From: Candidatus Chloroploca sp. Khr17
Lineage (GTDB): Bacteria; Chloroflexota; Chloroflexia; Chloroflexales; Chloroflexaceae
Assembly: GCF_004138165.1 (NCBI RefSeq)
Contig: NZ_RYFF01000021.1
Location: 1-64,000, forward strand
DNA length: 64,000 bases
Reading direction: 5' to 3'
Part shown: positions 6,663 to 22,004 of the stretch, piece after piece
Numbering within the stretch: position 1 is the first letter of the stretch
Layout: each line of letters begins with the position of its first letter
Program-made: the position numbers and the translations under genes
The notes under the pieces: model-generated
What the model was told of the DNA's origin: nothing
Database searches by the model: none
The model's input: the letters and a program-made list of their open reading frames with translations, nothing else

Positions 6663-8153
6663 TTATGGCACAGGTGTAGCTGTATTGGTTGGGGTCGCCG
6701 TTGGCTGATCAAGCACAAACTCACGATCAGGCGTGCCGGTGGGCACAGGCGTAAGCGGGTTAATCGGCAACCCGGTGATCGCCGTCCGGCCACAATCGGT
6801 TTGCCCAGGCAAGCAGAGCAACAGGACAAGATCGTAGCGAATAAACTGGTTGCCAATATCGCCAACATTCTTGATCTGCATAAAATAGAACCCATCAACC
6901 TGAGGGATAAACTCGATCTGTGAGTCGAGCGAATTGCCGCCTGGGATATCGTCATTGATGTCAATCACCGAAACCCCATCGCGATCAGTGAGTACCATCA
7001 CCGTATCCGCGCCCGCCTGCGTATCCTCGTTCACCCTCGTACGCCCAACATAGCGCCGGGTATCGGTATACATAATGTAACGCTTACCCGTCTTGCCAAA
7101 GAAACTTACCCAGTCAGCGTCGCCATCAGGACAGAGCGCACGGTTTTCTTGGAGTTCATTCGATGTGATGAGCTTGGACTGCTCAGGCAGACCATCGGGC
7201 TCAAAGAGATCGAGACAGACATTGCTAACCAGGGTTGGCGTTGGCCCGTAGCTCCCGCTGAGCAGCGCAATCACATACAGGAAATCCACTGCACCTCGTC
7301 CGGCAACATCACGTACCCGAATATAGTACCGCCCATCAGCAGGAATACGGATCGTAATACGGGGGCGCGTATCGCCCGGATTAGGACTCCCGGGGGTGCG
7401 GTTGAAGAAATCATCATTAAAGGCGATACTATTAAGATTAGCGTCAAAGATTTCGAGGCTCAGATCCAACCCAGGTGACTGACTCGCAATATCAATCGTA
7501 TAGACCTTGCCCTCGACCCCACCAAACACAAGCCAGTCAACATCGCCAGCGGGGCAGATTGCCCGTTCTTGCGAGGTGTCAACATCAATCACTTTGGCCG
7601 TGGCTGGGCTGTTATCATCCTCAAAGCCATCACGACAGACTGGGCCACGGGTTGGGGTCACGGTTGCTGGGCGGGATGTTGGCGTCGTTGTTGGCGTTGG
7701 GGTAAACGTTGCCCCAGTGACGGTAAGCTGCAAAAAGATACTCTGCGTCACATTCGTCTGGCCCGCAGCGGTACCGGTAATAATGCCGGCAATCGTATAG
7801 ACCCCTGGCGCAACCGTGCTGGCGACTGCGGCACCAATCGTGATCTGCTGGGACGATCCGACGGCAATGAACGTTGAACCAGAAGGGGCGATCTGAATGC
7901 CAGTGGGAATATTGCTAAAAGCTAGGGTAAACGTACGATCCACCGCACCGGGAATATTATTATTCGTGACGGTAATCAGAATCTGACTTGTCCCACCAGG
8001 CGCAACGCTTATGGTAGGGGTGGGAGGATCAATCGTAATAGCGGTCTGAGCGCTGAGCGGAGGTGAGGTGAAAGGGGCAGTTACCGCGAGAAAGAGTGCA
8101 ACGATAATGAACGTGGCAACCGCGGCATTGCGCCAGTGTATACGGTGGTTCAT
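6663..8153 (-). CDS. Exported protein with two PPC-like domains
   Basis: The 496-residue protein has an N-terminal signal peptide (hydrophobic residues about 10-30, ending near PLSAQT). An Ig-like/NPCBM-like beta domain follows (about 40-150), then a Thr-Pro linker. Two repeats, with cores CPAGDVDWLVFGG and CPDGDADWVSFFG, each preceded by an acidic FEDD or FEPD segment, match bacterial pre-peptidase C-terminal (PPC) domains. These usually decorate secreted proteases, but no protease domain is present here. The C-terminus is a TPT-rich tail. Cell-surface adhesion or scaffold function is inferred. A consensus promoter lies just upstream. Confidence 0.75.
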   Translation of the reverse strand: MNHRIHWRNAAVATFIIVALFLAVTAPFTSPPLSAQTAITIDPPTPTISVAPGGTSQILITVTNNNIPGAVDRTFTLAFSNIPTGIQIAPSGSTFIAVGSSQQITIGAAVASTVAPGVYTIAGIITGTAAGQTNVTQSIFLQLTVTGATFTPTPTTTPTSRPATVTPTRGPVCRDGFEDDNSPATAKVIDVDTSQERAICPAGDVDWLVFGGVEGKVYTIDIASQSPGLDLSLEIFDANLNSIAFNDDFFNRTPGSPNPGDTRPRITIRIPADGRYYIRVRDVAGRGAVDFLYVIALLSGSYGPTPTLVSNVCLDLFEPDGLPEQSKLITSNELQENRALCPDGDADWVSFFGKTGKRYIMYTDTRRYVGRTRVNEDTQAGADTVMVLTDRDGVSVIDINDDIPGGNSLDSQIEFIPQVDGFYFMQIKNVGDIGNQFIRYDLVLLLCLPGQTDCGRTAITGLPINPLTPVPTGTPDREFVLDQPTATPTNTATPVP

Positions 8154-8192
8154 GAATACACGCGGCTCCTAACATGAGGTTGAATCTTGAGT

Positions 8193-8222
8193 ATTATACT
8201 AATGTGGGTTACTCCATGTCAA
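8193..8222 (-). promoter_or_regulatory. Consensus promoter for the PPC-domain gene
   Basis: On the minus strand TTGACA and TATAAT are separated by 18 bp, about 40 bp upstream of the ATG of the exported PPC-domain protein. Confidence 0.75.
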
Positions 8223-8289
8223 GATAAGAGCCGACAACCATTCGCGACGCCTGGGGCGCATCCCTAGGCCATGAAAGGAACAATATCCC

Positions 8290-9369
8290 ATGCCTATGCC
8301 GCAACCGTACGACATCGCCATTATTGGTGCCGGGCCGATTGGCCTTGAACTGGCCGTGTGTCTCAAGCTCAGGGGGGTACGCTATGTGCAGTTCGATGCG
8401 GGTCAGATTGGTCATACGATGACCTGGTGGCCGCGCCAGACGACCTTTTTTAGTACAAGCGAGCGTATTGCGATTGCGGGGGTGCCGATCCCCAATAATC
8501 ATCAGCAACGCACGACCGGCGAAGAGTATCTGGCGTATCTGCGGGCGGTCGTCGAGCAGTTCGACCTGCATATCAATAGCTACGAGCCGGTGACGAGCGT
8601 GACGGGCGCGCTCGGGGCGTTTACGCTGCACACCAGCCATCGCACCGGGCCTCGCACCTATCAGGCGGCGCGGGTAGTCCTGGCGATTGGTGATATGCAC
8701 TGGCCCCTTCGCCTCGATCTTCCCGGTGAGGATCTGCCCCATGTGAGTCACTATTTTCGTGATCCGCACGACTATTTTCGGCGCCGGTTGTTGATTGTTG
8801 GCGGCAAAAATTCCGCCGTCGAAGCCGCTCTCCGCTGCTGGCGGGCCGGTGCCCAGGTGACGATGAGCTATCGCCGTGCGACCTTCGATGAGCGCCGGGT
8901 GAAGCATTGGCTCATGCCCGATCTGCTGGCCCAGATCGAAGCCGGGACGATCCGCTTTTTGCCCGAGACGATGCCGGTGGCAATTACGCCTGATTATGTT
9001 GAATTCGCTCATACCGTCGACGGCGAACCGGTGCCTGGGACGACGCTGCGCCATGCGACTGATTTTGTCTTGTTGGCAACCGGCTTTCGCGGCGACCAGA
9101 GCCTGCTCGAAGAGGTGGGCGTGTTGCTCGAAGGTTCCAATCGCGTTCCCCGCTTTGATCCCGAAACAATGGAGACCAATGTCCCCGGTGTCTATGTCGC
9201 AGGGACGGTGGCGGCCGGCGTTCAGCAGCGCTACTCGCTCTTTATCGAAAATTGTCACGACCACGCCGGCAAGATCACGCGGGCGGTGACTGGCCTCTGG
9301 CCGACAACGCTTGGCGATATTCCCGCCCGCACCTATGGGCTCGCCTTTGAGCAATTTGAGGCAAATTGA
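8290..9369 (+). CDS. YpdA-like FAD/NAD(P)-dependent disulfide reductase family protein
   Basis: The 359-residue flavoprotein has an N-terminal FAD-binding GxGxxG ([16 protein letters not shown]) and a second dinucleotide motif ([15 protein letters not shown]) near residue 170. The C-terminal ATG-type segment [10 protein letters not shown] follows, with [11 protein letters not shown] later. The arrangement fits the YpdA/Bdr family, known in Firmicutes as bacillithiol disulfide reductases. No redox-active CxxC is visible, which is also true of YpdA. Chloroflexota are not known bacillithiol producers to my knowledge, so the substrate is open. The ATG follows AAGGAA at a good distance. Confidence 0.75.
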
Positions 9370-12958: not shown

Positions 12959-13003
12959 TTTCGCGTGGTTAGTGGCGGCAAAGCCGCCACTAACCACGCG
13001 AAA
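12959..13003. terminator. 21-bp perfect hairpin, convergent gene ends
   Basis: TTTCGCGTGGTTAGTGGCGG plus C pairs perfectly with its complement across an AAA loop. It sits between the convergent acyl-CoA dehydrogenase and cytochrome genes, so it may terminate in both directions. There is no clear U-tract. Confidence 0.75.
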
Positions 13004-13048: not shown

Positions 13049-14299
13049 CTAATCACCCTCTTGCCCCGTAGGATGGCAGCTAGCGCAGTCATCAATATTG
13101 CCTGAAATTCCCTCCTCACTATGTTTGGCAAGTGTGGCGGCTTGCGGATGTGCATGGCAGTTGTAGCAGGTATACACGGTATACTGTTGCGGGTTCGTGT
13201 GGCATGTCGCACACGCGATTGTGCCCTCACCGCCATGGTTCAGCGGGAAGGTATGATCAAAGATGGCCCCTTCCCAACGGCTCGTCGTGTGACAACTGTT
13301 GCAATTCGTGCCAAACTGTCCCAGGTGAACCTGTGGCTCGGCGTGACATGATGCGCAATCCGTGGGTGTACCCTGGAAGATATGGTTGCTGTGACAACTT
13401 GTGCAAGGTGTCGTGATGTGGGCACCGGTAAGCGGGAAGGCGGTGCGACTGTGATCGAAGGTCGCTTGCTCCCAACCAGCCGGGGTATGACAACTCGCGC
13501 AGTCACTGCCGTAGGTGCCATTATGGATGTCATCGGTCTGGTGGCAACCGACACAAGTCGTCGCAAGGCCAACAAAACCCGCAGCATCACGTACCTCACC
13601 ATGGCAACTCGTACACGTAGCCTCGCCGTGTTTGCCAGCGAGAGGAACCGTCAGGGTATTGTGGTCAAAGCCGCTGAAGCGATCAATGCCGTCATGACAG
13701 TTTTGGCAGTCTGCCCCAAAATCAGCAACGTGCGAGACGACAAAATCAGCCTGGTAGTCCATATGGCAGTCGATGCAAATCGCCTGATCGAAACGATAGG
13801 CATTGATTGGGCGCGGGGTGATCTTCAGCGCAGTGTGGCAATCGGCACAGGCAAAAACAGACCCAGTGCTGGTGTACTGGTGAGCAGTCAACGCGAAACC
13901 CAGTGCAGCGTGCGGGAATGCCGTGAGCTCCATTTCAGTGAGCGTAGCAGTCGGTCCGCCATGTTCGGTGTGACAACTCAAACAAGCTCCCCCGTCGGGC
14001 AAAGCACCGTGCAGAGTGTCAGAGCTGGTGAGTTGAGCCTGGATGTCGGTGTGGCAGTCGAGGCAAAGACCGGCCATGCCACGGGTATCGAGCGGGTTGG
14101 TATGACAAGCACCACAATTCCCCCCGAGTGCAGCGTGTGAGCTCACGCCGCCAAGCGGTACACCCATCCGCGCCTGGGCATTCAGGGGGCCAGGGCTGAA
14201 CATATTGCCACCACCGAGAATCCAGGCAATCAGGACGGCCACCATAGCCGTAAGCCCGGCAGCTATGCCAAAGGGTGTAAGACAGCCAAGACGATGCAT
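13049..14299 (-). CDS. Fifteen-CXXCH multiheme cytochrome c
   Basis: The 416-residue protein has a single N-terminal hydrophobic segment (about residues 8-30: signal or anchor) followed by fifteen CXXCH heme-binding motifs, for example CGACH, CLDCH, CADCH, CQNCH, CTSCH, CVGCH and CYNCH. Additional histidines such as HTEHGG and HSNH could be distal ligands. Motifs resemble cytochrome c3/c7-like repeats. It would be periplasmic and carry electrons over long distances. The ATG is preceded by GAGGAG. It is the last gene of the ferredoxin - FAD oxidoreductase - cytochrome b operon, starting 11 bases after the latter. Partner and terminal acceptor are unknown. Confidence 0.9.
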   Translation of the reverse strand: MHRLGCLTPFGIAAGLTAMVAVLIAWILGGGNMFSPGPLNAQARMGVPLGGVSSHAALGGNCGACHTNPLDTRGMAGLCLDCHTDIQAQLTSSDTLHGALPDGGACLSCHTEHGGPTATLTEMELTAFPHAALGFALTAHQYTSTGSVFACADCHTALKITPRPINAYRFDQAICIDCHMDYQADFVVSHVADFGADCQNCHDGIDRFSGFDHNTLTVPLAGKHGEATCTSCHGEVRDAAGFVGLATTCVGCHQTDDIHNGTYGSDCASCHTPAGWEQATFDHSRTAFPLTGAHITTPCTSCHSNHIFQGTPTDCASCHAEPQVHLGQFGTNCNSCHTTSRWEGAIFDHTFPLNHGGEGTIACATCHTNPQQYTVYTCYNCHAHPQAATLAKHSEEGISGNIDDCASCHPTGQEGD

Positions 14300-14310
14300 C
14301 ATCAGTCTCC

Positions 14311-15171
14311 TCAACGCAACAAGGTTGCGTAGTAGAGCGCGGCACCAATATGCACACATGCCAGCGCGAACAGGGCCACTCCGAGGGGGATATGGATGGT
14401 GTGCCAGAGAGCCATCAGGCGGCGTGCAATGGCGAGGGATTCGATCTGACGCAAGAGCCGTTGGCGCTCGGCCAATGTATGGCGGATCTCGACGACCGTT
14501 GCTTGATCGATGATCCCAAGCGTGGCAAGGAGGCGTTGCTGCTCGGCCCGGTCGCGCCAGGCAAGGAGCGGACGAGCGAGCAGTGCCGTGAGTGGACTAC
14601 CAAGAACGGGTGGTGGTGTCGTAAGCAGATCGGTGGATGGCAGGTTACGTAAGGCCGAGCCAGGACGGGCTAGAGTCTCTAGGCGTGTCGCGCTTGCGGT
14701 CAGGCGAGCCTCGAGATCGGCGAGCGATAGTTCGGCACCGTCCACGGTGCGGGGAATGGCTGTGTAGACATAGCGTCCCACGAAGCCACTCAGAACAACC
14801 ACGACTGTGAGTAAGGTGACGACTCCAGCCAGTCCATTGAACCGCCAGGCCGTATGCAACACCACCATATACGAACCCACGATGCCCATAACAATATGCC
14901 ACTGAAGCCAGGTACTCAGCCGCCCATAGGTTCGCCCGCGCATCCGTTTGCGTAGCGAGTAGAGGGTTTCGGTAGCCAGCATGAGGAGAAAGCCGATCAC
15001 ACCCAGGCTGTGACCAAAGAAGGCGCCAGGGGCGGTGTCAAGGCGCTGCATGGCCCAGACATAGCAAGCTGTGACCGCTCCGACCCCAATCACGGCTATC
15101 TCTAGTTCATAGGTCGTGTGGCGCGGCGGTCGTCGCCCCCGAGGTAGTGGCAGTTCACCGCTTGTCTGCAT
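14311..15171 (-). CDS. Membrane cytochrome b-like protein
   Basis: The 286-residue protein has about five transmembrane helices, near residues 25-45, 52-72, 92-110, 115-140 and 255-280, with a roughly 100-residue soluble, partly helical stretch before the last. Histidines lie in the helices (FFGHSLG, LQWHIVMG, VVLHTAWRF, LWHTIHIPLG, CVHIG), consistent with two b-type hemes in a ferric reductase or b561-like fold. The start is an ATG after GGGAG and overlaps the end of the FAD oxidoreductase gene by 17 bases, showing tight coupling. Likely role is passing electrons across the membrane to the multiheme cytochrome. Exact family not recognised. Confidence 0.7.
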   Translation of the reverse strand: MQTSGELPLPRGRRPPRHTTYELEIAVIGVGAVTACYVWAMQRLDTAPGAFFGHSLGVIGFLLMLATETLYSLRKRMRGRTYGRLSTWLQWHIVMGIVGSYMVVLHTAWRFNGLAGVVTLLTVVVVLSGFVGRYVYTAIPRTVDGAELSLADLEARLTASATRLETLARPGSALRNLPSTDLLTTPPPVLGSPLTALLARPLLAWRDRAEQQRLLATLGIIDQATVVEIRHTLAERQRLLRQIESLAIARRLMALWHTIHIPLGVALFALACVHIGAALYYATLLR

Positions 15172-16477
15172 GGCTCTGCTCCCATTCAGCATAGAACGAC
15201 ATGATGAGGTGCGCAATGGCGCTCTTATCAGCGAGCAGGGCTTGACGAATAGGCGTAAGATCGGCGTTGGCGGCAATCAGCCGCTGTAGTGGCCGCGAGA
15301 GCGTTTGATCCCCCATCACAAGCGCCCCTTTGAGCGTCTGCTCACCAAGCATCAGGCGTAGGCGATTGACCGGATGTGGATCCACAACGACCCACGCTGA
15401 GCCAGCCATCCGCCAGGTTTCGCTATCACCACGGGCAATCGCGACGAGATCTGCATCCTCTCCACTACCCACAGACCCGATGATCGTTGTGGGGATACCA
15501 GCGAGCAAGGTGACATTCTGCGCTACGGTACGGCGGTAGGGCGTGGGGATGCCTGCCATCGTGGCCGCAGCAGCTTCCCCATGGGCCCGGGCCGTTGCCC
15601 AGAGCGTGTCGAGCGTCGCTTTGCCCGTCACTTCATTGTAGACCTGGGCGACGTCACCAGCCGCCAGAACATCCTCCGCGCTCGTCTTGAGGTAGGCGTC
15701 AGTCAGAATGCCCCGGTCGAGCTTGAGGCGACCGCTTTGGGCAAGATCGAGCCGTGGATGTGTGCCAATCGCGACGGCTAATAACGCACACGGGATGCGC
15801 TCGCCAGCCATGGTCTCGACCGCAATAAGGCGACCGCGTTTGCCGATCGCTTCACGTATCTGACTATGATGGTGAAGGATGATCCCTGTAGCACGAAGGT
15901 GATCCTCGACAAGTTGTGACTCATCGGGGTCGAGCACATTGGCCCAGTAACGCGCCCCGCGCAGCATGTAGTGAACCCGGCACCCCCGCGCATTGAGGCC
16001 CTCGGCAATTTCCAGGGCGGTGATGCCACCGCCGACAACAACGGCTTGCAGACCTTGACGCGCACGGCGCACAATGCTACGGGTATCGGCAAGGCTATCA
16101 AGGGTGACGATGCCGTCGAGCTCGCTCCCAGGGAAGTCAGGTAAGGCTGCACGCGCACCGGTGGCGAGAAGCAGTTTGTCATAAGCGAGGGTTTGCCCAT
16201 CAGCAAGGATCAGGCGATGCGCATAGGGATCAAGCTGATTAGCCCGAGCCTGCACCCAGGTCAAGCCGAGCGCACGCAACTCGGCGGGCGAGCGAGGAAA
16301 GAGTTGCGTCTCAGGGATAAGCCCACTGAGATAATAGGCGAGACCCGGACGCGAATAGAAACCCGCAGGATCGTCAGTAACGACCGTAACACTGGCCGAC
16401 GGCTCACGGGTGCGTAACGATTCGGCAGCGGCAATGCCAGCTACGCCCGCTCCGACAATAACATAGCGCAAACCCAT
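15155..16477 (-). CDS. FAD/NAD(P)-dependent oxidoreductase (NirB/rubredoxin reductase-like)
   Basis: The 440-residue flavoprotein has FAD-binding YVIVGAGVAGIAAAESL at the N-terminus and a NAD(P)-binding motif AVVVGGGITALEIAEGL near residue 145. ATG-type LLLATGAR and the DVLAAGDVAQVYN motif near residue 275 follow. This is the class II pyridine nucleotide-disulfide reductase layout used by NAD(P)H-nitrite reductase and rubredoxin reductases. No CxxC disulfide or Fe-S ligands are evident. ATG is preceded by GAGGAA. It lies 17 bases after the ferredoxin gene and overlaps the cytochrome b gene, so it probably moves electrons between NAD(P)H or ferredoxin and the membrane cytochrome. Confidence 0.85.
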   Translation of the reverse strand: MGLRYVIVGAGVAGIAAAESLRTREPSASVTVVTDDPAGFYSRPGLAYYLSGLIPETQLFPRSPAELRALGLTWVQARANQLDPYAHRLILADGQTLAYDKLLLATGARAALPDFPGSELDGIVTLDSLADTRSIVRRARQGLQAVVVGGGITALEIAEGLNARGCRVHYMLRGARYWANVLDPDESQLVEDHLRATGIILHHHSQIREAIGKRGRLIAVETMAGERIPCALLAVAIGTHPRLDLAQSGRLKLDRGILTDAYLKTSAEDVLAAGDVAQVYNEVTGKATLDTLWATARAHGEAAAATMAGIPTPYRRTVAQNVTLLAGIPTTIIGSVGSGEDADLVAIARGDSETWRMAGSAWVVVDPHPVNRLRLMLGEQTLKGALVMGDQTLSRPLQRLIAANADLTPIRQALLADKSAIAHLIMSFYAEWEQSHADKR

Positions 16478-16494
16478 TAGATTCCTCTTCTTTG

Positions 16495-16755
16495 TTACGC
16501 ACGCGAATGATCCGTCGGTGCAAAACGGAGCACACCTCGTGGGCAGCGGGCGATGCATTGCCCGCAGGTAAGGCAGCGTGGATCTTCAATCGCTGCGTTG
16601 CACCAGACGTAGGCTCGTACGTCAAGACCGATCGGGCAGTTGTAAGAGCAGACACCACACTGGACACAGCGCACCGAGTCGGCAACGACCTGTCCTGTGG
16701 CAAGCACCTCGGCCCTGATGAGATCCAGGGTGAGGGATCGTGCTACGAATGCCAT
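16495..16755 (-). CDS. Di-[4Fe-4S] ferredoxin-like protein
   Basis: The 86-residue protein has two cysteine clusters, CVQCGVCSYNCP and CLTCGQCIARCP, each CxxCxxCxxxC, separated by about 30 residues. It would hold two [4Fe-4S] clusters. The spacing and the YNCPIGLDVRAYV segment recall HdrC- or succinate dehydrogenase-like iron-sulfur modules rather than short clostridial ferredoxins. The chosen ATG is preceded by GAGAGAGG; a TTG one codon upstream is the alternative. It is the first gene of the electron-transfer operon and probably the cytoplasmic electron entry or exit point. Confidence 0.85.
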   Translation of the reverse strand: MAFVARSLTLDLIRAEVLATGQVVADSVRCVQCGVCSYNCPIGLDVRAYVWCNAAIEDPRCLTCGQCIARCPRGVLRFAPTDHSRA

Positions 16756-17054
16756 CAAAACCTCTCTCTCGCATGGGCGACATTGTTTGTGGTCGCCTGC
16801 ACGATAGTTATGAATTCTCCCTTGAGCGTAGCACCAGTTACTTGGAATTTGCTTGGAATTTTGATGATCCTGGTAGCAGAGTCATAATCTATGGTGAAGC
16901 AACCTTATCGATCTGTCCTGACGATCCTTCACCTGCCTCGCCACCTTTTTCCTGTGAGCAATCTTGGAATATGACGTGATGCTTTCCAATGTGCATCCAA
17001 GGAAAGAGTTGTAGAGTAGGCTCACATATCATTTTAGTAAGGAGCTTCATTCTT
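16756..17054. promoter_or_regulatory. Divergent regulatory region with 11-bp direct repeats
   Basis: CTTGGAATTT occurs at 16841-16850 and again at 16852-16861 (11-bp period), with a third near-copy CTTGGAATAT at 16963-16972. A possible plus-strand promoter, TTGATG - 16 bp - CATAAT, follows the pair. Tandem repeats of one helical turn are typical operators of PhoB/OmpR-type regulators. The regulator is not identified. Confidence 0.45.
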
Positions 17055-17519
17055 ATGAACCAACGTGCTTTGTTTGCTATCGCTGCAGCAGTGACTGCCT
17101 TCGTGCTCATCCTGCTTGCGGTGTTCGGCCCTGGTTTCTCTGGTTCTAGCACGACATCCACTCCCACTGATGTGGCCCCCCTCCAGGCGACTACGGCCAT
17201 TGGCACACAGCCCATGACAACCCCAGCGACTCTCCAGCCTTCAAATCCAGCAGGCTCTTATCCGGTCTCGGCTGATCAGGCAGGGAGCCTTGCGGTTGCT
17301 AGTAGTAGTGGTGCTACGCTCACAGGCACGCCTACGCTTGTAACGTATCAGGGTGCCGTTGCCTACGAAGTGCCATTAAGTACAGGCCTTGTCTATGTGG
17401 ATGCAACCAGCGGCCAGATCCTCGCGACCCCCGGCACTAGCACTACCACGACCTCAAACGGAAATTCAACGACGAATGACAATAGCGGAGATGACGATGA
17501 CGAGGAAGATGATGATTAG
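17055..17519 (+). CDS. Membrane-anchored PepSY-like protein with acidic tail
   Basis: The 154-residue protein has an N-terminal hydrophobic helix (about residues 5-25), a Thr/Pro-rich linker and then PVSADQAGSLAVASSSG. Later come YEVPLSTGLVYVDA and TSGQILA. This pattern (SxxxAxxxA, then a beta pair, then YVDAxTGxIL) resembles a PepSY domain. The C-terminus ends in an acidic run, DDDDEEDDD. ATG follows AAGGAG eleven bases upstream. It is divergent from the electron-transfer operon, and PepSY domains often accompany multiheme cytochromes and membrane flavocytochromes. It may be an accessory periplasmic protein of that system. Confidence 0.6.
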   Translation: MNQRALFAIAAAVTAFVLILLAVFGPGFSGSSTTSTPTDVAPLQATTAIGTQPMTTPATLQPSNPAGSYPVSADQAGSLAVASSSGATLTGTPTLVTYQGAVAYEVPLSTGLVYVDATSGQILATPGTSTTTTSNGNSTTNDNSGDDDDEEDDD

Positions 17520-17534
17520 TGTCACCTTCTTCAT

Positions 17535-17593
17535 CATCGTGTCTTGATCAAAAAAAGCCAGCAATGCTGGCTCTTTTTGATCAAGACACGATG
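17535..17593. terminator. 28-bp hairpin with A/T-tract arms
   Basis: The arms pair over 28 positions with one A/C mismatch, enclosing GCCAGC-aat-GCTGGC. The inner flanks are A7 and CT5, which gives a working U-tract in either direction. It follows the PepSY-like gene by 15 bases. Confidence 0.85.
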
Positions 17594-17645: not shown

Positions 17646-20405
17646 ATGCACCGTATGCTGTATCGTCCTTCGCTGGTGCTGGTGCGCGTGGCCCAGGTTG
17701 CGCTGGGGTTGCTCGCGCTTGCCTATCTGCTCTATGCTGCTGTGCATGTGCGGCAACTTCTGGCGTTTCCTTTTCCTCTTGACTATGGCGAAGGCCCTCT
17801 GGTCTCGCAAGTCGAGCGCCTGCGTGCCGGGGTGCCGATCTGGCGTCTCTATGCTGATCCAGAGAACGCCCCTTTTCTGATTGTCAATTATCCTCCGCTC
17901 TACCTGGTGCTTACGGCGATGCTGACGCCACTGACAGGGTCGGTGTTGATGGCTGGTCGCTTGCTTTCCCTGGTGGCGACGCTTGCCGCAATGGGGGCCA
18001 TTGCCTGGCTTTCTCACCCTGGGGCCGCGGCTTCACCCGTGGTACGCCGTACCTCGTGGTTGCTTGTGCTCCTCTTTCTTACCATCCCAATTGTCCGCGA
18101 ATGGTCGGCCCTGATGCGGGTTGACCTGCTTGGCTTGGCGCTTGGGCTCTGGGGCTTGGTGGTGCTGGCGCATCCGCCGTTGCCCTCGCTGCGCCGCGTG
18201 GCCGTCGCTGGCCTCTTGTTGACCGCGAGTCTCTTTGTCAAGCCGTCACTGCTTGCGGCCCCGCTTGCCGCATCGGCCTGGCTTGCCTGGCAGGTCTTGC
18301 CAGGCCTGAGCGCTGCGCGCCAGACGCTACCGGGGCGCAGGCGGCACCGTCGCTATGCCGACCGCTTGCCGCTCTACCGCCTGGTAGTGCTTGGGTTGAC
18401 CCTCGGACTGGCAGGCGGGCTCGCCTTGCTCGGCATGCAATGGGCGAGCCAGGGCTGGTTTTGGTTGCATGTCGTTGCCGCCAATGCGAATCGCTGGGAT
18501 GCCGACTTGGCCTTGCAGTTCTGGGGGCAGCAAATCCGCCTGCGCTGGCCGCTGGCCGTTGCGGCCTTGCTGGTTGCGTTCGCCGGGCTGTCGTTGCTGC
18601 GCCGTGACCCTGTCGTTGCTACCGCGTTGGAGTCGGGTGCTTTGCCACCTAGATCCAATCCTTTGCAAACAAGAACTGACGAACGGCATAGCCTCCATTC
18701 CCAACCTCCCCCCACTGGGGGGAGGAGCCAGACACCCTCCCCCAGCGGGGGAGAGCCGGGGAGGGGGCGAAAGGCTTCTTTGCAAAGGATTGCACCTGGA
18801 TCTTCCTCGCGAATCCTTCCCCTCTCCGCTATCGAGATGGAGCCTGGGGGTGAAGTCAGTTGGCCGCGCTCGTCGTTCCAACTCGCGCTCTTGTATACGC
18901 TCACCGGTTTTCTTACCGCGCTTGGCGTGGGCAAGGTTGGCGCGTATAGCAACTATTTCCTCGAACTCTACGCTGGTCTGATCTGGCTCATCGCGCTCGC
19001 GCCGAGTCTGATCCGCTCCTGGTTGCCATGGCGTGGCGCGATCTTCTATGGCTTGCTTGTGCTGGCGCTGGCCTACTATCCGCCGCTGTGGCACGCTGAC
19101 CAGTTGCGCCCGGCCAGTTTGGTCGAGCCATTGAAACCGCGGTTCGTCTTTGGGCGTTATGGGCTGCTGACCGATGCCAGGCGGCAGGCGGAAGTGTTAG
19201 CGGCCCAGGCCAGGGTTGGTGCGCTGCTCACGACGACGGTGCAAGCGGCGGGGCCGGTGGTGCTGACCGACATGCCTGGGGTTGCCTCAGCCGCCGGGGT
19301 GACCTCGCGGCTCCAGGCGTTCGAAATGCGTCAGTTGCTTGATCAGGGGCTGGCTGATGAAACGGCGTTGCTGCACGAACTTGCCAATGGCACGCTGCCC
19401 CTGGTGATCCTCGATTACCTGGGCAACTGGCTAAGCCCCGGTGTGGTCGAACTGGTGCAGCGCCGTTATGCGCACGACGGTTCGCTGGGCACCTTCGATC
19501 TCTATCGTCCGGTCGCAACCGGGCCTGCCTCCCCGCTTGACGGCGAGTTTGTCTTGGGCGACACGGCTTTGCGCCTGACGAACTATCACGTCGTGCCGTC
19601 AGTTGGGCCAACCTACGAGTCCGGCGAACTGGTGACGCTGACGCTGGCATGGCAGCGTCTGCCTGCGATGCCTGCTCCCAACGATAACCTGAGTGTTGTG
19701 GTTGACCTGGTGCCCCTCGACGGCGGCGTTGTGGCGACAAGTACCCGCCGACTGCTCTACGGCGTCTATCCGCCGTCGCGCTGGCCGACCGACGCTACGG
19801 TGCAACATATGCACCCCTTTGCTATACCAACGAATCTGCCGCCAGGCTCGTACCAGATCAAGGTCAGCCTTGTTGAGCCTGAAGGCGCAGTAGCAGATGT
19901 GATATTGCCGACGATCCTCACGGTTGCGCCGCAAGGCGGGCAATATGTCGCCGCAACGGACTACATGGTACCAGGGGTTATGTTGGCCGCGTGGACAAAC
20001 CTGGGTGGCCTCGAGCGTCTCGGGTGGCCGTTGACGCCGCTGGTTCCCTTTGACTGGGGGCGCCTGCAATGTTTCGAGCGCCTCTGCCTCGAACTCCGGG
20101 GCAACGCCGTTACCTCGCGCCCCTCTGGGACAACGCTCTACCTCGCCGAAACCCGCCGGAGCACCACGTGCCTCGATGGTGCCCCGAGGCCTGATGGCCT
20201 CTGCCCAGCTATGGCCGAAGCCGCAGCGCGCATCGCCCTACCTGGCACGCCCGTGAGTGGTGAAATTCGGCACGACGATCGCATCGTTCAATGGACCACC
20301 CATGCCCGTTTTGAACGCCGCTTCGACGACGACGCTGTCATGCTCGGGCGACTTGGGGCCGAAACCTTGCGCCTACCTCCAGGGCAGCGCTATCGCTGGC
20401 CGTAA
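17646..20405 (+). CDS. GT-C type membrane glycosyltransferase (GT39-like)
   Basis: The roughly 919-residue protein has about 10-12 hydrophobic helices in its first 530 residues and a soluble, probably extracytoplasmic C-terminal part. The first loop has FPLDYGEGPLVSQVERL, where acidic residues match the catalytic loop of GT-C/PMT-like glycosyltransferases that use polyprenyl-phosphate sugars. An arginine/proline-rich insert at about residues 336-386 is encoded by a palindromic element. A TATAAT at 17642-17647 would place transcription start near the second ATG (17655), so a leaderless start there is possible. No Shine-Dalgarno site is visible. Substrate is unknown. Confidence 0.7.
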   Translation: MHRMLYRPSLVLVRVAQVALGLLALAYLLYAAVHVRQLLAFPFPLDYGEGPLVSQVERLRAGVPIWRLYADPENAPFLIVNYPPLYLVLTAMLTPLTGSVLMAGRLLSLVATLAAMGAIAWLSHPGAAASPVVRRTSWLLVLLFLTIPIVREWSALMRVDLLGLALGLWGLVVLAHPPLPSLRRVAVAGLLLTASLFVKPSLLAAPLAASAWLAWQVLPGLSAARQTLPGRRRHRRYADRLPLYRLVVLGLTLGLAGGLALLGMQWASQGWFWLHVVAANANRWDADLALQFWGQQIRLRWPLAVAALLVAFAGLSLLRRDPVVATALESGALPPRSNPLQTRTDERHSLHSQPPPTGGRSQTPSPSGGEPGRGRKASLQRIAPGSSSRILPLSAIEMEPGGEVSWPRSSFQLALLYTLTGFLTALGVGKVGAYSNYFLELYAGLIWLIALAPSLIRSWLPWRGAIFYGLLVLALAYYPPLWHADQLRPASLVEPLKPRFVFGRYGLLTDARRQAEVLAAQARVGALLTTTVQAAGPVVLTDMPGVASAAGVTSRLQAFEMRQLLDQGLADETALLHELANGTLPLVILDYLGNWLSPGVVELVQRRYAHDGSLGTFDLYRPVATGPASPLDGEFVLGDTALRLTNYHVVPSVGPTYESGELVTLTLAWQRLPAMPAPNDNLSVVVDLVPLDGGVVATSTRRLLYGVYPPSRWPTDATVQHMHPFAIPTNLPPGSYQIKVSLVEPEGAVADVILPTILTVAPQGGQYVAATDYMVPGVMLAAWTNLGGLERLGWPLTPLVPFDWGRLQCFERLCLELRGNAVTSRPSGTTLYLAETRRSTTCLDGAPRPDGLCPAMAEAAARIALPGTPVSGEIRHDDRIVQWTTHARFERRFDDDAVMLGRLGAETLRLPPGQRYRWP
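18651..18803. repeat. In-frame palindromic element inside the glycosyltransferase gene
   Basis: The 153-bp segment (51 codons) is bounded by AGATCC...AATCCTTTGCAAA and the inverted TTTGCAAAGGATT...GGATCT. Inside are the hairpins cctcccccc-act-ggggggagg and ctcccccagcgggggag. Encoded residues are Pro/Ser/Gly/Arg-rich (PPPTGGRSQTPSPSGG), unlike the flanking hydrophobic helices. The element keeps the reading frame open. Confidence 0.7.
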
Positions 20406-20424
20406 GGCCCCGCGTCGCCCCGTG

Positions 20425-20797
20425 ATGCCGTGCCCGTGCCGTACCCGCGCCGTGCCCCATGGACGGCAGGGTACGGGCAAGCCGTACCCCTACAGCCGCG
20501 TCGCCCCGCCGCCCACCGCGTAGGGTCACGGCTTGCCCGTGCCCTGCGCCGTGCCCGTGCCGTACCCGCGCCGTGCCCGCGCCGTGCCCGCGCCGTGCCC
20601 GCGCCGCGTAGGGGCACGGCGCCGCCGTGCCCTGCCGCCGTGCCCGCGCCGTGCCCGCGCCGTGCCCGCGCCGTGCCCGCGCCGCGTAGGGGCACGGCTT
20701 GCCCGTGCCCGCGCCGTGCCCTGCGCCGTGCCCGCGCCGTGCCCGCGCCGTGCCCGCGCCGTGCCCGCCGTGTAGGGGCACGGCTTGCCCGTGCCCT
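20425..20797. repeat. GC-rich minisatellite of ~11-bp units
   Basis: Tandem copies of gtgcccgcgcc (11 bp) occur in runs of three or four, broken by longer units such as gtaggggcacggcttgcccg. Runs and spacers repeat in blocks of about 100 bp. Related gggcacgg-type sequence is found at 54990-55030 and 55610-55690. Open frames across it, in all directions, reflect composition only. Confidence 0.85.
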
Positions 20798-20894
20798 CCC
20801 CCCGCCCATATATGGTATACTACGCATAGTTTTGATGAGATTTGTATAGATTCTGAAGAAGAGCGCGTGCGCTCAAGATAAAGGTAGTTCGCTC

Positions 20895-22004
20895 ATGTCC
20901 GTGCAGACTGGCATTGTGATGCTTAACCTCGGGGGACCAGCGACCCTCGATGAAGTCGGCCCTTTTCTCGTCCGCCTTTTTGCTGACCGCGAAATTATTC
21001 AGTTGCCCCTGCAAACCTGGCTCGGCCCCTTCATTGCCCGCCGACGCACCGCTGCCGTGCAAGAGAATTATCGCCTGATTGGCGGTGGTTCACCGATTTT
21101 GCGCTGGACTACTATCCAGGGTGAAGGTATGGTACGCTGGCTCGACCGGCTCTCGCCAGCGACGGCCCCTCATCGCTTTTATGTCGCCTTTCGTTATGCG
21201 CCTCCTTTTAGCGAAGATGCCCTGCGTCAGATGCAGGCTGATGGGGTGCAGCGCGCGGTCGCCTTTACCCAGTATCCCCAGTTTTCCTGTGCCACCACTG
21301 GCTCAAGCCTCAATGAACTCTGGCGGGCAGCGCGGCGGCTCGGCCTCAGCAACGCTTTCGCTTGGAGCGTAATTGACCGCTGGCCGACCCATCCTGGTTT
21401 TATCGAGGCAATGACCCGTAGCGTGCAGCTTGGCCTGGAACAGTTTCCCGCCGCTGAACGAGACAATGTGCTCTTGCTCTTTAGCGCCCACTCGCTGCCC
21501 CTCACGATCATTGAGCGTGGCGACCCGTATCCCCAGGAGATCGGTGCGAGTGTGCAGGCGGTGATGGAGCAACTCGGGCTTGCGTACGAATATCTGCTTG
21601 CCTACCAATCGGCGGTTGGGCCAGTGCGCTGGCTTGGGCCACAGACCGAGCAGGTGATCAAGCAATTGGGTGCGCAAGGGCGACGCAACGTTCTTGTCGT
21701 CCCGATTGCTTTCACGAGTGACCATATTGAAACGCTCGCCGAGATTGACCATGAATACGGCGAACTAGCTCACAGTGTTGGCATCACCAATTTCAAACGT
21801 GCTCCTGCCCTCAACGGCGACGAAAACTTTCAGCATGCTCTCGCTGAGCTTGTCGCTGACCATCTCGCAAGTGGGCTCAACCACTCGCGCCAGTATGCGC
21901 TGCGCTGCCCCGGATGTACCAGCGACCAGTGTCGCACCCTGCTCAATCCGGTTGCCTCTCAGGAATCTATGGCGCTCGACCACAACAGTCAGTTGCGAAT
22001 GTAG
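20895..22004 (+). CDS. hemH: Ferrochelatase with [2Fe-2S] cysteine ligands
   Basis: The 369-residue protein matches HemH, which inserts Fe2+ into protoporphyrin IX in heme synthesis (some Chloroflexota use it on coproporphyrin). Catalytic His199 is in FSAHSLPLTIIERGDPYPQE. The end carries Cys338-x2-Cys341-x4-Cys346 (RCPGCTSDQCR), and Cys132 sits in YPQFSCATTGSS. These four positions correspond to the [2Fe-2S] ligands of animal ferrochelatase, by motif comparison from memory. ATG follows ATAAAGG. TATACT near 20813 may be its -10 element. It may supply heme for the multiheme cytochrome at 13-14 kb. Confidence 0.93.
   Translation: MSVQTGIVMLNLGGPATLDEVGPFLVRLFADREIIQLPLQTWLGPFIARRRTAAVQENYRLIGGGSPILRWTTIQGEGMVRWLDRLSPATAPHRFYVAFRYAPPFSEDALRQMQADGVQRAVAFTQYPQFSCATTGSSLNELWRAARRLGLSNAFAWSVIDRWPTHPGFIEAMTRSVQLGLEQFPAAERDNVLLLFSAHSLPLTIIERGDPYPQEIGASVQAVMEQLGLAYEYLLAYQSAVGPVRWLGPQTEQVIKQLGAQGRRNVLVVPIAFTSDHIETLAEIDHEYGELAHSVGITNFKRAPALNGDENFQHALAELVADHLASGLNHSRQYALRCPGCTSDQCRTLLNPVASQESMALDHNSQLRM

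Follow-up and report, generated by a model that had tools for sequence, protein, structure and literature searches.

The 64,000-nucleotide stretch of DNA analysed here (the window; positions 1 to 64,000 of contig NZ_RYFF01000021.1, assembly GCF_004138165.1) belongs to Candidatus Chloroploca sp. Khr17 and lies within contig 68 of its 6.4 Mb genome. It contains four tightly packed minus-strand genes whose products are likely to form an electron conduit leading from NAD(P)H across the cytoplasmic membrane to a multiheme cytochrome. They encode a ferredoxin-like protein (FER, 16495..16755; 86 amino acids (aa), with two CxxCxxCxxxCP motifs of the [4Fe-4S] type), a Pyr_redox_2 flavoprotein (FAD, 15155..16477; 440 aa, Pyr_redox_2 E 2.5e-49, with an NADPH-type fingerprint), a membrane protein with five hydrophobic segments (CYTB, 14311..15171; 286 aa) and a c-type multiheme cytochrome (MHC, 13049..14299; 416 aa, with 15 CXXCH motifs and an N-terminal membrane anchor). 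Measured from the starts of the open reading frames (ORFs), FER and FAD are separated by 17 bp, FAD and CYTB overlap by 17 bp, and 11 bp lie between CYTB and MHC. The original prediction, made from the letters alone, had described these genes and a divergent PepSY-like gene as a five-gene set, and all five ORFs were recovered with the gaps and motif counts that it gave; five hydrophobic peaks were computed in the protein to which it had assigned five helices, and exactly 15 motifs were counted in the cytochrome. The best named match at the locus is Candidatus Chloroploca mongolica, in which the cytochrome b is 97% identical, and the window organism and its relatives, identified by organism name, are presumably filamentous anoxygenic phototrophs of the Chloroflexales.

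FER, FAD, CYTB and MHC constitute a conserved four-gene unit. The cytochrome b is present in 10 of 61 genomes drawn from the organism itself, its genus, family and order (window genome included), and among those ten Chloroflexales genomes the order FER-FAD-CYTB-MHC is kept wherever contigs extend. In 400 Chloroflexota genomes, where the best four to six candidate places per genome were scored for CYTB and MHC, 56 have a CYTB match at E <= 0.001, and the MHC family occurs in 24 of these 56; when only close CYTB matches (E <= 1e-46) and the MHC family at E <= 1e-20 are considered, cut-offs chosen after the lists were known, the two occupy an identical set of 24 genomes. The neighbourhoods of all 56 CYTB genomes were profile-scanned, with neighbours defined as lying within 4.5 kb on one strand. 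Seventy loci were searched and the PepSY loci without CYTB (L132-L136) set aside, leaving 65 CYTB loci, which are not independent, as some share a genome (L074/L075, L102/L103, L025/L026 and others). FAD and FER both lie near CYTB in 56 of the 65; 25 of these also carry MHC, two (L023, L025) are cut by a contig end, and 29, from other Chloroflexota families, have the order FAD-FER-CYTB without an MHC match and are termed type B. One MHC-bearing locus (L067) shows the order CYTB-MHC-FER-FAD.

Pairwise distances among CYTB, FAD and FER are correlated both in the 24 loci of type A, the MHC-bearing type (rho 0.83-0.89), and in 28 loci of type B, excluding L023 and L025 (rho 0.82, 0.77 and 0.75), with 0 of 500 permutations as high in either set, and the CYTB-FAD correlation within single families is lower (rho 0.63 in 13 and in 8 loci, with 0 and 1 of 500 permutations as high). 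Every listed family forms one group in the FAD tree, built by a quick method and accompanied by long-branch warnings, a pattern that fits mostly vertical inheritance with losses. The original prediction had held that its proposal would fall if the genes were not co-conserved in related genomes; co-conservation was found, by neighbourhood (56/65 loci) as well as by genome (the same 24/400). A chance neighbourhood of unrelated redox genes might be suspected from the fact that every protein except CYTB comes from a broad redox superfamily, yet it is extremely improbable and is refuted by this co-conservation: three families preserve the gene order, and in a fourth the genes are rearranged yet still clustered; CYTB and MHC share an identical set of 24 genomes, the distances correlate, and a like layout recurs in two other phyla. 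Several variants were also observed among the loci. In type B, the FAD protein of L078-L083, L085 and others is longer (stop-to-stop frames of approximately 500-700 aa), and the cytosolic loop of CYTB is longer in the three rows viewed. Weak CYTB relatives of about 300 aa in L089, L120 and L124 lie a few kb from a protein of 812-828 aa, which in L089, the sole case scanned, joins Pyr_redox_2 with FHA domains.

The central component of the unit, CYTB, matched no Pfam or NCBIfam model above cut-off in library scans, scoring 11.1 bits against Ferric_reduct (PF01794; cut-off 28) and, together with some relatives, weakly and below cut-off against Ni_hydr_CYTB. In the Chloroflexota rows with E < 1e-15 and more than 180 aa (54 rows), H92 and H106 are kept in all 54, and H260 and H274 in all 53 rows with letters, the two members of each pair standing 14 residues apart in one helix. 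Helix borders were set by hand around the five computed hydrophobic peaks, and the positive-inside rule, applied to the arginine-rich loops, assigns the N terminus and the 136-254 loop to the cytosol, so that H92 and H260 would lie near the inner face and H106 and H274 near the outer face, an arrangement that suits two stacked b hemes. CYTB is thus proposed as a predicted diheme b cytochrome, with H92/H260 as putative ligands of the inner heme and H106/H274 of the outer heme. Two further histidines, H54 (window 15010-15012, minus strand) and H257 (14401-14403, minus strand), are conserved in the MHC type, being present in 27/27 and 26/26 MHC-type rows with letters and in 0/25 MHC-less rows, where Tyr, Leu or Phe and Arg, respectively, replace them. 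Both are also kept in L073 and L077, which carry a multiheme c-type cytochrome, and they may mark a docking or third-cofactor site.

A different role for CYTB would be that of a CbcL-like quinol oxidase or quinone reductase, with FAD and FER feeding or draining the quinone pool from the cytosolic side. CbcL-type proteins combine a putative diheme b membrane part with a multiheme c-type cytochrome and are proposed to be quinol-linked in the available part of PMC6295460, and the sub-cut-off scores to Ni_hydr_CYTB point in the same direction. However, CYTB has FAD and FER as neighbours in 56 of 65 loci, and in other phyla their place is filled by different NAD(P)H/FAD/Fe-S proteins, which suggests direct coupling and renders the quinone-linked version unlikely in comparison with a conduit fed directly by the flavoprotein.

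The nature of that flavoprotein bears on the electron donor. Its best relative by sequence in the PDB is AorC, a subunit of the Aromatoleum aldehyde oxidoreductase (8c0z_E, E 4.5e-48), and by fold its predicted model retrieves putidaredoxin reductase first and AorC eighth; the model has a mean predicted local distance difference test score (pLDDT) of 68.3, low across much of residues 317-391, and the fold comparison with AorC bears on the protein outside this low-confidence C-terminal part. Against the PadH model it reaches E 7.4e-50 and 170 bits, with an equivalog cut-off of 475. The second dinucleotide site of FAD reads GGGxxA, followed by Leu172-Arg173 at the end of strand 2, and the combination of GGGxxA with a hydrophobic residue and Arg occurs in 54/54 rows with letters (2 of the 56 rows have none at the site). 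AorC carries GAGFIG and Glu-Met at the corresponding site, in line with the NAD-type fingerprint of GxGxxG and an acidic end of strand 2, which FAD lacks. According to the accessible portion of PMC5817062, GxGxxG is found in NAD enzymes and GxGxxA in NADP enzymes, the former usually having an acidic residue at the end of strand 2, and the cofactor of E. coli glutathione reductase was switched by seven changes that include A179G, V197E and R198M; the structure title of 5voh, an NADPH-engineered NOX, names G159A, D177A and A178R. The positions of FAD were matched to both enzymes by pattern rather than by alignment. Because its fingerprint matches the NADP-type pattern, NADPH is the predicted donor, and NADH is disfavoured on the same grounds.

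AorC reduces NAD+, and in AorABC its FAD lies 9.5 Å from a [4Fe-4S] cluster of AorA, as given in the available part of PMC10413684. By analogy with AorA and AorC, FER more likely serves as an internal relay that links FAD to the inner b heme, and ferredoxin as the electron donor was judged less likely, because FER is packed with an NAD(P)H flavoprotein whose homolog docks to [4Fe-4S] clusters.

At the other end of the unit, the 15 CXXCH motifs of MHC far exceed the number in 10,000 shuffles (mean 0.18, maximum 4). The protein matches PF14522 (77.1 bits) and PF14537 (68.6 bits) above cut-off, within the c7/c3 superfamily, and its best PDB match, hydroxylamine oxidoreductase at E ~3e-4, is read as reflecting common heme motifs. 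It is partly built of a repeat in which hemes are spaced by 32, 16 and 18 residues, giving 66 aa with three hemes. The first MHC of each cluster contains 14-30 CXXCH in unbroken frames, commonly 15, 18, 21, 27 or 30 and also 14 or 17, and second cytochromes in some clusters contain 23, 41 or 47, with 33 in L059; the chain looks as though it had been lengthened by duplication of three-heme units. No second member of the close MHC family turned up in the genome of the window, although PF14522 scores on two other contigs; the cytochrome c assembly family PF01578 has two matches there. Beside the module of L067 lies a second cytochrome (7213-8460) with 10 CXXCH, cut by the contig end, that has an MtrC/MtrF-like domain match.

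Relatives of CYTB were also detected on plasmids of Proteobacteria and Bacteroidota; cross-phylum relatives come from the plasmid collection, as the genome-contig scan, based on two short patterns, reaches close relatives only, and a scan of viral contigs gave no relative. When a short Chloroflexota CYTB was compared with 72,556 plasmid records by tblastn, 14 matches were obtained, all annotated as hypothetical, and an Alteromonas relative used as query yielded 53 plasmid records, three of them named 'iron reductase'. Neighbourhoods were inspected in 16 of the 53 records. In these 16 plasmid rows aligned with five Chloroflexota rows, H92/H106 are kept in 21/21 and H260/H274 in 20/20, the Gluconobacter protein being truncated, and against Ferric_reduct three plasmid relatives score 13.0-16.1 bits and a fourth gives no match. 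A seven-heme c-type cytochrome directly follows CYTB in 13 of the 16 plasmids (unannotated in Methylocystis); the heme motifs are split 4 + 3 over two frames in Roseomonas, the cytochromes of Emticicia, with 23 and 32 CXXCH, begin only after one intervening gene, and the Gluconobacter plasmid has broken genes and no multiheme cytochrome. The front end of the cluster, assessed by Pfam domains in 4 of the 16 plasmids and by annotation and motifs in the remainder, is an FNR-type FAD/NAD protein with [2Fe-2S] preceding CYTB in Alteromonas, Caulobacter and Methylophaga (Pfam) and mostly the same elsewhere, split in Roseomonas and Gluconobacter; in Bradyrhizobium it consists of no more than a short [2Fe-2S] piece, next to which lies a transposase gene. 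In Emticicia, a protein with two Fer4 motifs and Pyr_redox_3 stands behind CYTB. Together with FAD/FER, these arrangements indicate that the CYTB family is combined with three or more kinds of front end. A hydrogenase lies near the module in the Alteromonas and Glaciecola plasmids, and conjugative typing matched 5 of the 16 inspected plasmids and 26 of the 53 records.

Copper or heavy-metal genes lie near the module in 10 of the 16 plasmids inspected (plasmid loci L147-L161). They raise the possibility that the module is an assimilatory or detoxifying reductase working at the cell surface, mainly on Fe(III), Cu(II) or oxidants, with MHC acting over a short range only, which is a narrower form of the conduit reading. 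The three 'iron reductase' annotations and the type B loci, which have no multiheme wire, are in line with such a role. Five proteins flanking the module in the window were scanned, and none has a part in metal resistance or iron uptake (one is a ferrochelatase). With as many as 30 CXXCH in first MHCs and 47 in second ones, the cytochromes carry more hemes than short-range reduction would be expected to need, and this restricted function is accordingly held to be possible but rather unlikely.

Conserved clustering, occurrence in the same 24 genomes, four invariant histidines, positive-inside topology and the like layout elsewhere together argue for the broader conduit reading as the probable one. 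In this scheme, FER, FAD, CYTB and MHC would form one complex crossing the cytoplasmic membrane, probably without the need for quinone. Cytosolic NADPH would reduce the FAD protein, from which electrons would pass to the two [4Fe-4S] clusters of FER, as they do from AorC to AorA or back. The inner b heme of CYTB (H92/H260) would receive them next, followed by its outer b heme (H106/H274), and they would move from there to the membrane-anchored 15-heme MHC projecting from the cell, which would deliver them to an external acceptor such as a metal ion, an oxidant or a partner protein. We infer complex formation, heme occupancy, NADPH use, the outward direction and the acceptor from sequence comparison. 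The original prediction had envisaged a route from NAD(P)H or ferredoxin through the membrane to a periplasmic multiheme wire. Comparative evidence sustains the route, with ferredoxin more plausibly a relay than a donor; and since Chloroflexota are mostly single-membraned, 'periplasmic' is better read as extracytoplasmic.

Within the conduit reading, an outward flow of electrons is moderately favoured by the membrane potential, which helps electrons to leave the negatively charged cytosol, by the NADPH fingerprint and by the occurrence of relatives among metal-resistance genes. In the opposite direction, MHC would take up electrons from outside and the chain would reduce NADP+ for carbon fixation. 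Such an inward conduit would suit the relatives of the window, which by their names are presumably phototrophs, but it would have to drive electrons against the membrane potential and to the potential of NADPH. Moreover, the unit also occurs in further Chloroflexota families, and the copper or heavy-metal genes near 10 of 16 plasmid relatives fit a reductase better. Similar flavoproteins can run toward the nucleotide, as AorC does in reducing NAD+ (PMC10413684, in the part available), but inward transfer is on balance very unlikely, and export remains the preferred direction.

Several observations nevertheless weigh against the conduit reading. CYTB has no significant relative by sequence in the PDB (best E 0.25), and its AlphaFold model, based on an 11-row alignment, is poor (mean pLDDT 53.8) and gives no heme geometry; CYTB may also have a quinone site. 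The unit is patchy, being found in 10 of 61 relatives and missing from a genome of the same genus (G002), and MHC is not obligatory for the FAD/FER/CYTB core, as the 29 type B loci show. In 9 of the 65 CYTB loci no FAD or FER match was obtained: L026 is fragmentary, the FAD frames of L073 are broken, L077 pairs CYTB with an eight-heme c-type cytochrome and has neither FAD nor FER match, and L086, L089, L090, L097, L120 and L124 are weak CYTB matches in which the FAD or FER match is missing. Furthermore, H54 is missing in 15 of 16 plasmid relatives, although most have a multiheme cytochrome, and H257 is missing in all except Emticicia (gapped in Gluconobacter), which is thus the only one with both; outside Chloroflexota, therefore, the pair does not track MHC. 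Finally, the proposed chain gives no role to the PepSY neighbour. As a separate observation, CYTB and the eight-heme cytochrome of L077 (7051-8913) lie near genes that by eye resemble response regulators.

The PepSY neighbour is transcribed divergently from the unit (17055, or an in-frame ATG at 16989, to 17519, plus strand) and encodes an anchor, a domain and a tail rich in Asp. No Pfam PepSY match is obtained for the window protein, but its domain matches a stretch of the same genome that exceeds the Pfam PepSY cut-off, and orthologs beside the unit score 14.4, 22.0 and 26.0 bits against PF03413 (cut-off 24). The gene is probably a PepSY relative by these sequence matches, in agreement with the anchored, acidic-tailed PepSY-like protein originally described. 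Of the 10 Chloroflexales organisms that are informative, 8 carry it next to the unit; no PepSY match was found beside the unit in ZM16-3 and ZM17-4, the contig of Ja1-D5 being too short to tell, and a profile scan gave none in the loci of other Chloroflexota families. PepSY is thereby ruled out as a core part and is an accessory, lineage-specific neighbour, so that the five-gene set originally proposed contracts to the four minus-strand genes. The tail varies from a long Asp run in Viridilinea (L018:12196-12690) through mixed Asp/Glu in the window (17460-17519) to Gly/Glu/His in L019. Elsewhere in the same genome (contig 153, L135:5931-8364), a PepSY protein with two domains is encoded in a row with a protein of 128 aa and an ApbE flavin transferase, opposite a gene that by eye resembles a response regulator, and this row is possibly a second extracytoplasmic redox system.

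With regard to flanking elements, a perfect 21-bp hairpin (12959..13003, no strand assigned; z -9.6) that separates MHC from a convergently transcribed gene for an acyl-CoA dehydrogenase likely marks the 3' end of the four-gene unit; it has no T run and is missing from the computed terminator list. A terminator-like hairpin in that listing (17556..17572, plus strand) lies 3' of the PepSY gene, and terminator-like sites in the region number 3 against 3.7 in shuffles, so that the number alone is no evidence. The ferrochelatase gene (20895-22004), approximately 3.4 kb past the PepSY gene, adjoins a GC-rich low-complexity repeat with overlapping long ORFs on both strands (20340-20850, by eye).

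Comparison with known systems places the module close in logic to the NADPH oxidase/ferric reductase (NOX/FRE) superfamily, in which electrons pass from NAD(P)H through FAD and two b hemes to an outside acceptor, the hemes being held by histidine pairs on two helices. The histidine spacing of about 13-14 residues is defining for that superfamily, and CYTB likewise has two helices, each with two conserved histidines 14 apart. CYTB nonetheless scores far below the Ferric_reduct cut-off. In NOX/FRE proteins an FNR-type FAD/NADPH domain is fused to the membrane part, whereas here the Pyr_redox_2 protein is separate, a [4Fe-4S] protein is inserted and a multiheme cytochrome follows in the chain; in the three scanned plasmid cases, the FNR-type protein is also separate from CYTB. 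In function, the module would amount to a NOX or ferric reductase whose parts are distributed over individual proteins and whose acceptor is a multiheme wire. CbcL, MtrH and MtoC share with it a putative diheme b membrane part and a multiheme cytochrome outside. However, CbcL is a single fusion protein, predicted to have six helices and proposed to be quinol-linked, whereas separate genes, five hydrophobic segments and an NADPH-type front end are found here; Table 1 of PMC6295460, within the part available, lists no CbcL homologs for Chloroflexi. AorABC (8c0z) and PadH/PadF have a homologous FAD subunit, which in AorABC docks to [4Fe-4S] clusters, but AorABC is a tungsten enzyme using NAD+, PadH of the Pad phenylglyoxylate dehydrogenase is named NADH-dependent, and the four-gene unit, with its NADPH fingerprint and membrane b cytochrome, includes no such catalytic subunit. 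The plasmid clusters of Alteromonas, Sphingobium and others share the CYTB family, a dehydrogenase before it and a multiheme cytochrome after it, and differ in an unrelated front end (FAD_binding_6, NAD_binding_1, Fer2) and in having seven hemes. In PepSY-like flavinylation systems, PepSY-named proteins likewise occur beside membrane redox systems, but these are three-helix PepSY_TM proteins (PMC8238504, in the part available), whereas a singly anchored PepSY domain is encoded divergently here. No description of such a gene set, or of its version in the Alteromonas region, was found in the literature searched, which covered few subscription papers. Earlier work on the Alteromonas hydrogenase region may refer to genes next to it, but the available part of PMC3701524 contains no mention of genes neighbouring that hydrogenase.

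The proposed conduit is unusually modular. It is tentatively suggested that the diheme CYTB is a general transmembrane socket accepting at least three NAD(P)H/FAD/Fe-S front ends and cytochromes of 7-30 hemes (up to 47 in second copies), which would allow quinone-independent export, unlike Mtr/CymA, CbcL and ImcH, with the wire of single-membraned Chloroflexota lengthened by 66-residue three-heme units, adjustable at the cell surface and driven directly by NADPH. Among bacterial export routes that lead to multiheme cytochromes, the best known (CymA, CbcL, ImcH) draw their electrons from quinol; an NADPH-fed conduit, if true, would link acceptors outside the cell to the anabolic electron pool. 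The combination of an invariant CYTB, exchangeable dehydrogenases and stepwise growth of the heme chain makes it possible to test how such conduits are put together and adjusted, and it proposes a function for mostly 'hypothetical' proteins encoded by 53 or more of the 72,556 plasmid records, many of them near copper-resistance genes.

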